From contig NZ_CP098401.1 of assembly GCF_023674425.1 (NCBI RefSeq), positions 1,612,001 through 1,676,000 on the forward strand: 64,000 nt of DNA, read 5' to 3'. The stretch's first letter is position 1. Every line of letters begins with the position of its first letter. Positions 13,372-60,193 of this stretch are shown piece after piece. A program made the translations under genes and the position numbers. Origin of the DNA: Sphingomonas donggukensis (GTDB lineage Bacteria > Pseudomonadota > Alphaproteobacteria > Sphingomonadales > Sphingomonadaceae). The notes under the pieces are model-generated. The model saw only the letters and a list, made by a program, of their open reading frames with translations, did not search any database and was not told where the DNA came from.

Positions 13372-13702
13372 GCGCCCGCGATTAGCGGGCGGGCGGAGAT
13401 TGGGCAAGGCGCCGGCGGCGGCGGATTTGCGTTAGCAAATCGCCGACTCGCCACGGCGGGAAGCAAGATCGCGCAGAGAAACCGTTTAGCGGCGTTGTAA
13501 TATGATGAGTGGCCGCTCACGCCCCAAAAGCAGACATATTAGTGTCGGCAATGCCGCGCTTTGGTCATCCACCCGCGTACGGCAAGAGCAAAGACAGACA
13601 CCGGGTTTGGCTTGACTCTCGTAACAAAGGCCCGCAGTTTTAGTCCCTTCCGCTTGGACGAACGACGCGTCGGTTATTATCGAGTTTACAGGGGGCCAGA
13701 TC
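13372..13702. other. Intergenic stretch, becoming AT-richer
   Basis: This stretch holds no gene I can support. From about 13480 the sequence is visibly AT-richer than the flanking DNA and stays so to about 14230. Confidence 0.5.
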
Positions 13703-13975
13703 ATGAAGGTGCTGCTAAGCGCAATTTTCATCGCGACGTTCACGCTAATGTCTGGCACCGCCTCGGAAGCTAAAGATGACGTAAGTGCAAAAACAAACAA
13801 AGGTGAGCATTGTCGGACGGCGAAGAAGGCTGGGGTCGATGCTGCACTAGCAGCTGCTGAATGTAAAAAGCTGCTGGCTAAGCCCCCCCGACCCACGGAC
13901 TGTGTCCTGCGACCGGGGCAACCTAACAAATGTGCCGCACTGCTTCCACCGATGTCGAACATCTCGACAAGGTGA
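13703..13975 (+). CDS. Small secreted Cys-containing protein of unknown function
   Basis: A 90-residue protein with a clear signal peptide (MKVLLSAIFIATFTLMSGTASEA, cleavage likely after SEA). The mature part has four Cys in CRTAKKAGVDAALAAAEC and CVLRPGQPNKC, a spacing that could form two disulfides. No family is recognised. Codon use is less GC-biased than in neighbouring genes, consistent with recent acquisition. Confidence 0.5.
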   Translation: MKVLLSAIFIATFTLMSGTASEAKDDVSAKTNKGEHCRTAKKAGVDAALAAAECKKLLAKPPRPTDCVLRPGQPNKCAALLPPMSNISTR

Positions 13976-14163
13976 TAGAGATCGGCCGACGGCAGTGAGC
14001 GATGATTGCCGCGACGATTGAGTAAATCAGACAACAAAATTCGGCGCGCCCAAGACAGGAGCGCGCGATCGTAATCCTCGATTGTCGAGGGGTGCGACGT
14101 GCGCCTCCTGGCAGGCGGCACCTTACTTCGCTAAAGATAGCGACTTGCGGCGATATGGTCAGA

Positions 14164-54313: not shown

Positions 54314-55297
54314 ATGCAGAACAGAGTGCCTACGCTGCGGCCGGTCCGCGAGTTCGAGCCCGTCCCCCGGAAATACCGGCATGACGGCTGGACCGTCGAA
54401 CGCCAGCGCGCCTTCATCGCCGCGCTCGCGGAAACCGGATCGGTGAAGGCCGCCGCCGGTCGTATCAACATGAGTCCGGAGGGCGCCTATTACCTCCGTC
54501 GCCAGCCCGGCGCGGAAAGCTTCGCCGCGGCGTGGGAAGTCGCGCTCGACCACGGCGTCCAGAGCCTCGCCGACATCGCCATCGAACGCGCGCGGGAGGG
54601 CGTTCCCGTCCCCGTGTTCTGGAAGGGCGAGCAGGTCGGCGAGAAGCGCTGGTACAACGATCGGCTGCTGATGTTCATCCTGCGCCACCACCTGCCCCGC
54701 CGCTACGGCGCCCTCGCCGCGCTCCCCACCGGCACCCGCCACCCCGACACGATCGCGCGGGAAGAGGCCGCGGCCGCCCAGACCGAAGCCGCCCAGACGG
54801 AAGCAGACCGCGCCGAGGCCGACCAGGCCGAGAGCGACCGCATCAACGAGGTGCTGTTGAAACGCTATGAGGCAAAGGTCCGCGCAGAACGCAGGCTGCG
54901 GCTGGAGGGCCGCGTCGTCGCCGCCGACTTCACCCTGCGCCAGCTCACCCACATCGAACTGATCCTCGACGCCGGCGGCCGCACGCTGGCGCTGATCGAC
55001 CGCGCCACCGGCATGGGCCCGCGCGGCGAGCCCCTCGGCGACGAACCCTACGCCAGCGAAGTCAGCGACCTGCTCGCCACGATCCGCGAGGAAGCATGGG
55101 CCAAGGAGGCCGCCCCGCCCCGCCCGCCCGTGCGAAGGCCCCGCATCCAGAACGGCTTCGGCCGCGACGCCTATAACGACAAGGCGCGACTGGCGGTGCA
55201 GGTCGCCGCGGCGAAGCGGATTGCCGAGGCGCAGGCCGAGTGGGAAGCGGCGGGGACGGCGGAGGGGTGGAAGGCTTGGTGTGAGGGGCGAGGGTGA
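54314..55297 (+). CDS. HTH protein, terminase-small-subunit-like, paralogue of 24926 gene
   Basis: A 327-residue protein. An HTH repeat at about residues 28-75 (RQRAFIAALAETGSVKAAAGRINMSPEGAYYLRRQPGAESFAAAWEVAL) matches those in the 24926 gene. It is followed by VPVPVFWKGEQVGEKRWYNDRLLMFILRHHLPRRYG, a segment common in a sphingomonad/phage family. The middle is a long charged helix rich in Ala/Glu, probably coiled coil. No terminase large subunit or phage genes are near. Function is unknown. Confidence 0.7.
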   Translation: MQNRVPTLRPVREFEPVPRKYRHDGWTVERQRAFIAALAETGSVKAAAGRINMSPEGAYYLRRQPGAESFAAAWEVALDHGVQSLADIAIERAREGVPVPVFWKGEQVGEKRWYNDRLLMFILRHHLPRRYGALAALPTGTRHPDTIAREEAAAAQTEAAQTEADRAEADQAESDRINEVLLKRYEAKVRAERRLRLEGRVVAADFTLRQLTHIELILDAGGRTLALIDRATGMGPRGEPLGDEPYASEVSDLLATIREEAWAKEAAPPRPPVRRPRIQNGFGRDAYNDKARLAVQVAAAKRIAEAQAEWEAAGTAEGWKAWCEGRG

Positions 55298-55378
55298 GGT
55301 GGAGAGGGGTGGGCGGCTGCTGTTGGGCTGGTAGCGGATTGGCAGGGGGTAACTCGGAGCCAGACTAAGAAGACTCAA

Positions 55379-58054
55379 TTAGCGAGGCGATGCGGCCAGC
55401 ATTTCGCTTGGTTTTGAGAAAGTCAGCTCCAGAACGTTGCAGTGGATCAAACTGCCATGCGTTAGTCGCTGCCGAGGCGAATCCTCCCCGACGTAACGCG
55501 CGGCCGCAAAACGTTCGAGGAAACGTCCAGTGATATTCACACTGCGTGAAGCACATAGCCGGTTCATCATCCCTAAAAAGGAATGATGCGCCGGTCGGTC
55601 AGTAGTTGGAATCGCGTAGAAAGCATTTTCGCTTGAGTCGGATCCTTCAATAATCGGTACGAGGAATTCCAGTTCATTTGGGAAGTAGTTGTCAATGAAG
55701 CCTGATTGCCGCTCGCGCACCGTTCCGATGGACCAAGCTTCCGCCTGACGGGCGTATCGCATGATGGGCGCATAGACCCGCCCGACCCTACACGCCTTAT
55801 CGAAAGCCTCCTCTAGGCTCAACCACTCACGATCAAAGCTGATTGAGGCAATCGGCGTTGCATCGCCGTCGAAATCGGCAACTCGCCGAGCAATAACACG
55901 TTGTTGCGGTCCGACTGGGACCGATTGCGCTGCCAGCAGCGCCTGTTTAGTGGCCCAATCGGCCAACAAGGTACGTGATCTTGGAGGTCCAAAGGATCGA
56001 CGTGGTCCAGCTGGTTGATAGTCGACCGCTCCCCAAAAGTCGTTGGCGTACTGGTTGAACCCCTCGGTTGCACGGAACATGCCGACAGCGCGAACACCAC
56101 GCGCGGCCACGCCAGAAACCGCCGCCAGACCGGCTGACGGATCGTCGGGGTCTAAGAACGTCAGTCGCGGTGCTGCTTCGGCTATCTCTGCCTCGATCGC
56201 CTCAATTGAGACGTTGATGGCCTTGTTCACGTGCGGGAGCGAGATGCGCCGCAGCCAAGCTGCCCGATCTTCATCAAACCAGTTACGCGAGTGAATTTTT
56301 GTATTCTGCCCCGCCACATCCACAAAAATGTCAACATCAAGCATTGGGCAAAGAGCACCGATCATTTCCGTGAATGTCACGGGTGTCTCCGAGCGGCTGA
56401 AGGCCGAATCGAAGTGCAGGACTTGCTCCAACATCGTTCGGGCGAGCTTTAACGTGACGCGTGTCGATACTGTCGCGCTCGCGGTGACATTACCCGCATC
56501 AAGTAGAATCGGCCGGGTCGGAGCCCCCTTAGAAAATTTGAGCGTTCGAGATTGATCTAGACCTTGATCGAAAGGACGCGAAAGCACCGTGATCTCGTCA
56601 GCGATCATAAATGTCGAGAAGAAGCCGACGCCAAACTTTCCGGTACGCTTGCGCCCCTTAGACAAAAGTCCGGGCCGCTCAGCTTTGACGAGGCTGGAGG
56701 AGATGTAGCTTTCGCCAAAGTCGATGAGCGGCCCAGTAAGTACCGCCTCCGACATGCCGAGCCCATCATCCTCGATCTCAATCCGCACGTGGTCCGCGCC
56801 ATCATCGCGCAAACGTGCGACGATCCGACCGCTGTAGGGGCTATTCTCCGGTTCCAGCTCCCGCCTATACCGAATTGCGTCGGCAGCGTTCTGAATCAGC
56901 TCGCGAACTGGCACCCACATCTGATGGCCGTAGAGCTTTTCGCCGCCGAACAACTCGACGATTCTGTCGACCCGCGAAATTCTGACGTCGGCAAGCACTG
57001 GGCGCCAGCCGCTGACCTGAACCAGCGCGGCGAGGCGATCTGGCGTCTCGGCGCCGCGGACCCGGTTTACTTGTAGCGGTGGTAAGCCGACATCGCGCAG
57101 GAGAGCGTCCGTCGCTTGAAGTTCACGATTCGCGACGCTAAGCGCATCATAGGCTATCCACCAAGCACTCGCGTCTTCCTCGAGGAACGGCCGAGTGGAC
57201 GTGAAAACCAGTGCCTCGGGCTGCGCAGGATCGACATATGGATGGGCAAGCCGGTTCTGCGCACGCCAATGCTGCTCGGACAAGCCACGTAATTGCAGAA
57301 GCCCAAAAAGGAAATCGGGTGCGCGATCCTGATCAAGCTGGGTCGCGTCGGCACAGCGCAGCAGGCCGGCCAGCAAGATGGGCCGGATCGTCCAGTCAGC
57401 GGGCATACCTGCAAGTGAGCCGCGCGTGCCCCCAAGGCGATTAGCCAGCGTGCCCGTATCCCAATGGTGACTGGCAGCAATCTCACCGATTAGAGCGCCA
57501 AGATGGGTCCGTAGCTGATCGTCGTCCAGAAGATAGTGGCGTCGACCGACCGTCTCAACCTCGAAGTCGGCAAGGTCGAGTGCGCGCTCCGCATGGATGG
57601 CACGCAACGTGTCTAGGAGCAGAGCTCGTCTCGTTTCAACGTCTGGCTCGGAGAGCGCGCCTTCATCTTGTCGCTCGGCCCATTGTGCCAAGGCGTCGCG
57701 CCATTCTGACGTCGCCTCGACCGCGGCCAGACGACCTGGGAAAGCAGCAAGCGAATTAGCGGCGTCGTGTAGAAGGATGGCGCCACCAAAGACAAAAACT
57801 TCGAGCGGAGTCAGTTTGAATTCATTGCCCGCGACTTGATCCGCGCGAGCCCACAAAGCCTCAAAATGCCGATCGTCATGCAGTGTTAGTTGCGGCAGGT
57901 CCCGCTGAATCTCTCGCGATAATTCGACCGCGTTGTTCCAGAACTGGCGATAGCTAGCACGCAATTGCTCGCGCCTGTCGGGGGCCGTGCCCTCTCCAAT
58001 GTTGCGATGCCAGAGCCCGAGCTCCTCAAATTGCCCCAAAACCGAACTCTCCAT
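55379..58054 (-). CDS. HD-domain / HSP90-like GHKL ATPase, candidate conflict-system protein
   Basis: An 891-residue protein. The N-terminal third is an HD-type metal-hydrolase-like domain: LTLHDDRH (H59, H63), AILLHDAAN (H96-D97), SHHWD (about 196) and LLRCADATQLDQDR (D236). The middle is a GHKL/HSP90-type ATPase: N-box ELIQNAADA (E385, N389, D392), G1 EDDGLGMS (D430, G433) and G2 GKFGVGFFS (G475, G477). The last 250 residues are of unknown fold. HSP90-like ATPases joined to HD-family domains occur in predicted bacterial conflict or defence systems. The gene is single, flanked by AT-richer DNA, between an HTH gene and lepA, which fits a mobile acquisition. The ATG at 58054 is the first good start. 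Confidence 0.8.
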   Translation of the reverse strand: MESSVLGQFEELGLWHRNIGEGTAPDRREQLRASYRQFWNNAVELSREIQRDLPQLTLHDDRHFEALWARADQVAGNEFKLTPLEVFVFGGAILLHDAANSLAAFPGRLAAVEATSEWRDALAQWAERQDEGALSEPDVETRRALLLDTLRAIHAERALDLADFEVETVGRRHYLLDDDQLRTHLGALIGEIAASHHWDTGTLANRLGGTRGSLAGMPADWTIRPILLAGLLRCADATQLDQDRAPDFLFGLLQLRGLSEQHWRAQNRLAHPYVDPAQPEALVFTSTRPFLEEDASAWWIAYDALSVANRELQATDALLRDVGLPPLQVNRVRGAETPDRLAALVQVSGWRPVLADVRISRVDRIVELFGGEKLYGHQMWVPVRELIQNAADAIRYRRELEPENSPYSGRIVARLRDDGADHVRIEIEDDGLGMSEAVLTGPLIDFGESYISSSLVKAERPGLLSKGRKRTGKFGVGFFSTFMIADEITVLSRPFDQGLDQSRTLKFSKGAPTRPILLDAGNVTASATVSTRVTLKLARTMLEQVLHFDSAFSRSETPVTFTEMIGALCPMLDVDIFVDVAGQNTKIHSRNWFDEDRAAWLRRISLPHVNKAINVSIEAIEAEIAEAAPRLTFLDPDDPSAGLAAVSGVAARGVRAVGMFRATEGFNQYANDFWGAVDYQPAGPRRSFGPPRSRTLLADWATKQALLAAQSVPVGPQQRVIARRVADFDGDATPIASISFDREWLSLEEAFDKACRVGRVYAPIMRYARQAEAWSIGTVRERQSGFIDNYFPNELEFLVPIIEGSDSSENAFYAIPTTDRPAHHSFLGMMNRLCASRSVNITGRFLERFAAARYVGEDSPRQRLTHGSLIHCNVLELTFSKPSEMLAASPR

Positions 58055-58399
58055 TGGTGTCCGCTTGCAAGCTTAGATGCATGGTCGGAATTCACCAAGA
58101 CGGCATATCTTCTCTTGACTGCAGCGAGACGTTGGGAACGGAAGAACGCGTCCAAAAAGTCCGGTCTTCAGACCGAAGCGTTACACCACGATCTTCGGCA
58201 GTCGTGTGAACGGGTAAAAGCGCACCACTTTCGTAACCTCACTGACGCAAGCTGATCGACCATAAGTGGCGTGCAAAGCCCAAATCCGCACCCGCCGCGG
58301 CAAAGCCGCGTCGTCGGTCGGCGCTCGTAGCGCCGCCGGCCGGGCGCGACGCTGGTCTTCGTCCAACTCGGCGATTGCTGCGCAATCCCCTCGTTGGCC
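58055..58399. other. Intergenic stretch before the HD-HSP90-like gene
   Basis: 58055-58255 is AT-richer and would contain the promoter of the HD-HSP90-like gene; no strong consensus is visible. 58297-58343 is an R element. No gene is supported here. Confidence 0.5.
58297..58343 (-). repeat. Double-hairpin element R5 downstream of lepA
   Basis: Read on the minus strand: GGCCGGC, hairpin 1 GGCGC-TACGA-GCGCC, spacer GACCGACG, hairpin 2 CGCGGC-TTT-GCCGCG. It is 57 bases beyond the lepA stop, in the same orientation relative to its upstream gene as the R elements of the ribosomal cluster. Confidence 0.65.
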
Positions 58400-60193
58400 T
58401 CAGGCGTCGTCGCCCATCCTCAGCGCAGCAATGAACGCCTCCTGCGGGATGCTCACCGAGCCATATTCCCGCATCTTCGCCTTGCCCTTCTTCTGCTTGT
58501 CCAGCAGTTTGCGCTTGCGCGTGGCGTCGCCGCCGTAGCATTTGGCGGTCACGTCCTTGCGCATGGCGCTGATCGTCTCGCGCGCGATCACCTTGCCGCC
58601 GATCGCGGCCTGGATCGGGATCTTGAACATGTGGCGCGGGATCAGTTCCTTCAGCCGCTCGACCATGCCGCGCCCGCGCACTTCGGCGGTGCCGCGGTGG
58701 ACGATCATGCTCAGCGCATCGACCGGCTCCTCGTTGACCAGGATGCCCATCTTGACCAGGTCGCCCTCACGGTACCCGATCTGCTCGTAATCGAAGCTCG
58801 CATAGCCCTTCGACAGCGATTTCAGCCGGTCGTAGAAATCGAACACCACTTCGTTGAGCGGCAGTTCGTAGGTCGCCTGCGCGCGCCCGCCGACATAAGT
58901 CAGGTTCTTCTGGATGCCGCGGCGGTCCTGGCACAGCTTCAGGATGCTGCCGAGATATTCGTCGGGCACGTAGATGACGGCCTGGATCCACGGCTCGGCA
59001 ATGCTCTCGATCCGGTTGGGCTCGGGCATGTCGGCGGGGTTGTGCAGGTCGATGTGCCCGGCGCCGTGGGTCAGCTCGATCTGGTACACCACCGACGGCG
59101 CGGTGGTGATGAGGTCGAGGTCGTACTCGCGCATCAGCCGCTCCTGGATGATCTCCAGGTGGAGCAGCCCCAGGAACCCGCAGCGGAAGCCGAAGCCGAG
59201 GGCAGCCGACGTTTCCATCTCGAAGCTGAACGACGCGTCGTTCAGGCGCAGCTTGCTGATGCTCTCGCGCAGCTTCTCGAAATCGGCGGCGTCGACCGGG
59301 AACAGGCCGCAGAAGACGACCGGCTGGACTTCCTTGAACCCCGGCAGCGGCTCGGGCGTCGGGCGCTTGGCGTCGGTCAGCGTGTCGCCGACGCGGGCCT
59401 GCGCGACTTCCTTGATCTGCGCGGTGATGAAGCCGATCTCTCCGGGGCCCAGGTCGGGCAGCTGCTCGATCTTGGGGCGGAACGCGCCGACGCGGTCGAT
59501 CAGGTGGGTGGTGCCGGCGGCCATGAACTTGATCTGCTGGCCCTTGCGGATCATGCCGTCGATCACGCGCACCAGGATGACGACGCCCAGGTACGGGTCG
59601 TACCAGCTGTCGACCAGCATGGCTTTGAGCGGCGCGTCCTTGTCGCCCTTGGGCGCCGGGATACGCTCGACCACCGCGTCCAGTATTTCCTCGATGCCGA
59701 TCCCCGACTTCGCGCTCGACAGCACCGCGTTTGACGCGTCGATGCCGATGATCTCCTCGATCTCGTGGCGCACCTTCTCAGGCTCGGCGCTCGGCAGGTC
59801 GATCTTGTTGATGACGGGGATGATCTCGTGGTCGTGCTCGATCGACTGGTACACGTTGGCGAGCGTCTGCGCCTCGACGCCCTGCGCGGCGTCGACGACG
59901 AGGAGCGCACCCTCGCACGCGGCCAGGCTGCGCGAGACCTCATAGGCGAAGTCGACGTGGCCCGGCGTGTCCATCAGGTTCAGGATATGGCCCTTCCACT
60001 CCAGGCGTACCGTCTGCGCCTTGATGGTGATCCCGCGCTCCTTCTCGATCTCCATGTTATCAAGGACTTGCGCCGACATCTCCCGCGCCGCCAGCCCCCC
60101 GGTGGTCTGGATCAGCCGGTCGGCGAGCGTCGACTTGCCATGATCGATGTGAGCGATGATCGAAAAATTGCGGATCTTGTCGAGCGGAGTCAT
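58400..60193 (-). CDS. lepA: Elongation factor 4 (LepA)
   Basis: A 597-residue translational GTPase. G1 is AHIDHGKST (about residues 14-22), G3 DTPGHVDF, G4 NKID, and the family-specific C-terminal domain includes [31 protein letters not shown]. LepA acts on stalled or mis-translocated ribosomes at the membrane. The start [11 protein letters not shown] at 60193 is chosen; the frame runs on upstream to 60661 but overlaps the divergent CsgG-like gene and lacks similarity. Confidence 0.98.

Follow-up and report, generated by a model that had tools for sequence, protein, structure and literature searches.

The HD-Hsp90 gene and its domains

The window, that is, the whole stretch of 64,000 nucleotides from Sphingomonas donggukensis that was analyzed, carries a minus-strand gene encoding a protein of 891 residues in which an HD phosphohydrolase domain is fused to an Hsp90-type ATPase. 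The gene begins with an ATG codon and is present as a single copy in the 2.9-Mb, one-contig genome of the host. Its coordinates agree with those given in a first-pass annotation, and so does its location between an HTH-type gene on the plus strand and lepA on the minus strand.

55379..58054, minus strand: coding sequence of the HD-Hsp90 fusion protein, 891 aa (ORF list, Pfam, alignment, AlphaFold model)
57116..57898, minus strand: HD-CE phosphohydrolase domain, residues 53-313 (Pfam PF24391, E 1.7e-48)
56450..56959, minus strand: Hsp90/GHKL ATPase domain, residues ~366-535, with N box E385/N389, G1 box D429xGxGM and G2 box G472xxGxG (profile matches, invariant residues)
54314..55297, plus strand: flanking HTH-type gene (ORF list, sister-genome comparison)
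58400..60193, minus strand: flanking lepA gene (ORF list, sister-genome comparison)

The score against the PF24391 profile was 166 bits, compared with a cut-off of 27, and residues 53-313 correspond to positions 1-262 of the 263 in the model. A Pfam search of the protein also matched HATPase_c_3 to residues 379-494 (E 3.3e-7). When a family profile was employed, the closest solved relatives of the ATPase domain were Hsp90, TRAP1 and Grp94 (E ~1e-22); a sequence search for solved relatives of the HD domain found none. The fusion of an intact HD domain to an Hsp90-type ATPase, as read in the annotation, is thus supported by the Pfam matches and by the invariance of both sites in 70 homologues described below.

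The gene was also said to be unlike its neighbours in base composition, and this was confirmed. It has a GC content of 0.582 and a GC3 of 0.609, whereas the open reading frames of the window have a mean GC content of 0.681 with a standard deviation of 0.038. The GC profile of the window showed that the AT-richer island consists of this gene alone. A 211-residue open reading frame at 13486-14121 on the minus strand has the lowest GC content (0.559) among the window's open reading frames and is possibly another foreign gene.

Conservation of the active sites

A search with an alignment of the HD domain only was employed to collect homologues and yielded 80 genome loci and 6 loci on viral contigs; a peptide-pattern search from the single window protein found no homologue. 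From these loci, 70 full-length proteins that are 28-55% identical to the window protein were aligned. The residues of the predicted HD site are encoded as follows.

57866..57880, minus strand: H59-x3-H63, predicted metal ligands (in all 69 rows covering them)
57764..57769, minus strand: H96-D97, the HD dyad (invariant, 70/70)
57593..57595, minus strand: H154, predicted metal ligand (invariant, 70/70)
57467..57469, minus strand: H196, predicted metal ligand (invariant, 70/70)
57347..57349, minus strand: D236, distal Asp of the HD site (invariant, 70/70)

One of the 70 alignment rows is truncated before H59 and H63. H59/H63, H96-D97 and D236, which had been noted earlier, are all present in the protein and invariant where the rows cover them; H154 and H196, which had not been cited, are invariant too, as is R233. 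In the ATPase domain, E385, N389, D392, D429, G431, G433, M434, G472, G475, G477 and T531 are invariant in the 70-protein alignment, and the GHKL site is intact as claimed, with N389, DxGxGM at 429-434 and GxxGxG at 472-477. The possibility was considered that the HD and ATPase sites are degenerate or not conserved in the family, but it is rejected by the invariance of both sites across the 70 homologues. In the spacing of its ligands, H-x3-H / HD / H / H / D, the site is similar to binuclear HD phosphohydrolases such as the HD-GYP phosphodiesterases.

The C-terminal half of the protein

The following features were assigned in the part of the protein that follows the ATPase domain.

55820..56437, minus strand: probable Hsp90 middle (transducer) domain in diverged form, residues ~540-745 (whole-model Foldseek to TRAP1 N and middle domains; forced profile alignment)
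55997..55999, minus strand: R686, candidate counterpart of the catalytic Arg of Hsp90, R380 in yeast (invariant, 70/70; aligns with the Arg of HtpG NxSRE)
55379..55819, minus strand: variable C-terminal region, residues 746-891 (lowest conservation; fastest divergence in close pairs)

The AlphaFold model of the full protein has a mean pLDDT of 90.8. Structure prediction of the C-terminal part, residues 536-886, likewise gave a confident fold (pLDDT 90.3), but this part alone had no significant match in Foldseek, where the two top-ranked structures were Hsp90s at E ~1, and sequence profile searches with it found nothing. When the whole model was submitted to Foldseek, it was aligned with N and middle domain structures of Hsp90 and TRAP1 over ~446 columns (E 6.6e-11), a match to which the N domain probably contributes most. 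A profile-profile alignment was forced over the N and middle domains, and in it the invariant G675 and R686 fell on the HtpG motif RGxVDSxDxPLNxSRE, in which R686 is aligned to the catalytic Arg of HtpG. Residues 540-745, although not significant alone in the searches, are a probable diverged Hsp90 middle domain. The suggestion of the first-pass annotation that the C-terminal 250-300 residues may be a new effector is therefore not supported for residues 540-745, which make up most of this region and look like such a domain.

The C-terminal part evolves faster than the rest of the protein. In close pairs of homologues, identity drops from the HD and ATPase domains (e.g. 0.93 and 0.94) to the middle domain (e.g. 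0.79) and further to the tail (e.g. 0.67), and the L058/L059 pair is the sole exception to the further drop in the tail among the close pairs listed. Between the window protein and its nearest relative, the identities are 0.61 (HD), 0.64 (ATPase), 0.46 (middle) and 0.40 (tail). The last ~145 residues, for which no domain assignment was obtained, evolve fast and for this reason seem closer to a sensor or a region that binds a partner than to an effector.

An insert beside lepA

Comparison with sister genomes was used to delimit the inserted DNA.

55254..58283, no strand: foreign insert with approximate ends, holding only the HD-Hsp90 gene (DNA similarity to sister genomes interrupted there)
55204..55217, plus strand: imperfect 14-nt direct repeat near the left insert end, 13/14 identical to its partner (repeat search)
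58293..58306, plus strand: partner of the repeat at 55204-55217 (repeat search)

DNA similarity to the sister genomes ends at ~55253 and restarts at ~58283-58290, giving an insert of ~3.0 kb; the equivalent interval in one sister genome, G006, is ~0.5 kb. The HD-Hsp90 gene, lying in this insert between conserved flanks, with a GC content of 58% compared with 68% and rare in the genus, is horizontally acquired. The stand-alone foreign insertion proposed earlier was thus borne out. The direct repeats near the ends of the insert could be due to chance in GC-rich DNA. A scan of the insert for promoters and terminators found sites no more numerous than in shuffled sequences, and homologues showed no general link to tRNA-associated integration.

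In several sister genomes the lepA and HTH-type genes are close together, separated by a gap of varying length. Between the equivalent flanks lie a 780-residue PDC-S06/AAA_13 ATPase in G001, pieces of a type IIG restriction-methylase in G021 and a remnant of a GHKL ATPase in G006, where a resolvase gene is located past the HTH-type gene; in G003, a PIN toxin gene adjoins lepA. The variety of defence-type genes found here in sister species indicates that the spot has been used repeatedly for such genes. The 3' side of lepA in the genus appears to be a small exchange spot for defence-type genes, and it is worth mining for more of them.

Distribution and mobility

HD-CE above the cut-off was found in 4 of 121 genomes of the genus and 4 of 385 genomes of the class, the host genome included, and the copies from the genus fall in different subfamilies of the tree. 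The tree of homologues intermixes at least 13 phyla, archaea among them. This patchy distribution and horizontal spread reject the alternative of a uniformly vertical core gene. Copies from Pectobacterium and Neptuniibacter, which are distant hosts, have an HD identity of 0.89 in unrelated contexts, one adjoining a GNAT-type gene and a transposase and the other adjoining aconitase, indicating that the mobile unit can be a single gene. No DNA-level match to the Pectobacterium copy was found in complete E. coli genomes. The copies are mostly chromosomal, with few on plasmids; six were found on viral contigs, and 50,697 phage records contained no full-length relative.

Genes adjoining the homologues

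In the nearest relative (Phaeospirillum), the gene comes after a Lit homologue and PDC-S28. Elsewhere in the clade of the window gene, the viral-contig copy has a phage integrase next to it, and PDC-M48B and a serine recombinase are found close to the G179 copy. PDC-S06 adjoins the homologues at five loci, and other neighbours include Cap4-nSTAND, OLD, AAA_13, TIR-NLR, RES/HEPN, Fic, MazF and CI-type repressor genes. Adjacent neighbours matched 101 PADLOC models, compared with 28 when about as many randomly chosen genes were used, a rough control that counts models rather than proteins and whose random set includes a defence locus (Argonaute). Many homologues stand alone with housekeeping genes alongside, so the neighbour evidence comes from a minority of the copies. 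The family is patchy, moves horizontally and occurs in the context of defence genes, which are the genomic hallmarks of a defence gene.

The gene had been described as standing alone. This is the case in the window insert, but several distant relatives have an LmuB-like SMC-type gene directly upstream, at six loci with gaps of 0-24 bp; at a seventh, L081, an upstream gene of similar size overlaps the HD-Hsp90 gene. The LmuB-like gene (~830 residues) is conserved on the same strand at L090, L094, L102, L103, L113 and L126, and possibly at L081, making this subclade a candidate two-gene system. At another locus (L099:5978-9847), an Avs-like protein of 1289 residues, matched weakly by Cap4-nuclease and nSTAND1 models, is encoded 72 bp upstream of the HD-Hsp90 gene on the same strand.

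Relationship to known systems

The window HD domain is full length over the HD-CE profile (PF24391), and no difference was found in the domain. However, PF24391 describes the domain only; what is conserved here is the complete protein with its HD domain, Hsp90 N and (probable) middle domains and C-terminal part. Because Pfam already lists the domain, the family itself is known rather than new. The RefSeq label for the Zymomonas mobilis copy on pZMOB03 is 'ATP-binding protein' only, and no paper on HD-CE or HD plus Hsp90 defence was found in the literature library searched. The earlier proposal of a candidate defence system is plausible from mobility, insertion spot and neighbours, but the window protein matches no model in PADLOC-DB 2023, where only weak GHKL matches to TmtA were obtained (E 0.004 or worse).

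The protein resembles Hsp90/HtpG in its GHKL ATPase, with all three boxes, and probably also has a diverged form of the middle domain, with R686 as the candidate catalytic Arg. It differs in having a fused HD enzyme and, unlike a core chaperone, in being rare and mobile. Identity with HtpG is rejected, as the protein scored 49.9 bits in the HtpG equivalog test, far below the cut-off of 371, and had no match to Pfam HSP90 (PF00183). The PF00183 search found no match anywhere in the host genome (G000), which is without a canonical Hsp90/HtpG; the HD-Hsp90 protein is therefore the only recognised Hsp90-like protein there.

The sacsin-type and BbrUII-type ATPases also have an Hsp90-like ATPase fused to other domains, and sacsin couples Hsp90-like modules with a HEPN domain (PMC3710099). 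However, the profile matches to these proteins were weak and limited to the ATPase, and the putative effector of the window protein is an HD domain rather than HEPN or a restriction nuclease. The likeness to Lamassu is confined to the distant subclade described above, in which the LmuB-like SMC gene and the HD-Hsp90 gene form an operon-like pair. The window gene and its clade are without an SMC partner, and the HD-Hsp90 protein matches no LmuA model. Lamassu identity of the window gene is rejected, the insert holding the HD-Hsp90 gene only.

Proposed function

The gene is reasonably likely to encode a mobile, single-protein anti-phage defence, with an Hsp90-type clamp that would sense infection and in turn gate an HD phosphohydrolase; the protection and its trigger are what we infer from the genomic evidence. 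The Hsp90-type ATPase, comprising the N and middle domains, would act as an ATP-driven clamp, and the fast-evolving middle and C-terminal part would probably make contact with a phage product or with a host protein altered by infection. Closure or release of the clamp would turn on the fused N-terminal HD phosphohydrolase, which would destroy a nucleotide or nucleic-acid substrate and so stop phage growth, probably at a cost to the cell. The action is thus probably abortive. The class of substrate is suggested by the resemblance of the metal-ligand pattern to HD-GYP-like binuclear enzymes, while clamp gating and the sensor role are proposed by analogy only.

The possibility was considered that the protein is instead a mobile stress or signalling enzyme, an HD phosphodiesterase under an Hsp90-like chaperone module that processes a host second messenger or responds to protein damage. 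Many copies do stand alone beside housekeeping genes, and in a host without a canonical Hsp90 an accessory Hsp90-like protein could serve the cell itself. However, the very patchy and horizontal distribution, the sharing of the insertion spot with defence-type genes and the presence of Lit, PDC-S06, LmuB and OLD among the neighbours make this explanation unlikely.

A selfish, toxin-like module, in which the Hsp90-like part keeps an HD toxin inactive in cis and the toxin stabilises its carrier element, would fit the single-gene mobility seen in the close Pectobacterium and Neptuniibacter copies and the toxin-type neighbours (MazF, Fic, RES and GNAT-type genes). Broken copies nevertheless occur without an obvious antidote, the invariant ATPase and variable C-terminus point to a regulated sensor, and the mostly chromosomal location of the copies also argues against it, so that this explanation is rather less credible still. 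Capture by bacteria of a phage-derived RIIA-type function (superinfection exclusion or counter-defence) is the most improbable: RIIA proteins, which bear a GHKL ATPase and are tied to phage-host conflict, were matched in Foldseek, and of the viral-contig copies one adjoins an integrase and another an S24/CI-type repressor, but the similarity (best E about 2e-6) is partial in length, weaker than that to Hsp90, probably due to the shared GHKL part only and unaccompanied by any HD-CE relation or full-length match in the phage records.

Within the anti-phage reading, a more specific version, that of an uncharacterised one-protein immunity in which the Hsp90-type clamp, through its fast-evolving middle and C-terminal surface, reads a phage product as a 'client' and so gates the fused HD phosphohydrolase, is put forward tentatively. 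If it is true, a chaperone cycle has been turned into a pathogen sensor that has spread across bacteria and archaea. More generally, if the protein is defensive, the Hsp90-type clamp joins those ATPases that are already known to control the immune effectors of bacteria, and the Pfam HD-CE domain, for which no tested function was found, would acquire one. The system consists of one 2.7-kb gene whose two active sites are well defined, which opens the idea to direct testing.

Broken copies and divergent fusions

Five homologues (L053, L071, L109, L110 and L112) are split by in-frame stops or frameshifts, in every case within the ATPase region or close to it. Recoding at these stops was considered and rejected: the stops and frameshifts are not the same from copy to copy, and in one split copy the N-box Asn is lost as well, which favours decay. 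Decay, or error in metagenome-assembled genomes, is the likely cause, and the clustering near the ATPase is curious.

Two more distant proteins combine an HD domain with a GHKL domain. The first, of 1037 residues and from the same genus (L054:7801-10914), is an HD-CE member at E 4e-46; the second, of 607 residues (L047:7515-9338), is encoded on a Priestia plasmid near type I restriction genes. The HxxxH...HD...D pattern was seen by eye in both, and these divergent fusions suggest a wider superfamily.
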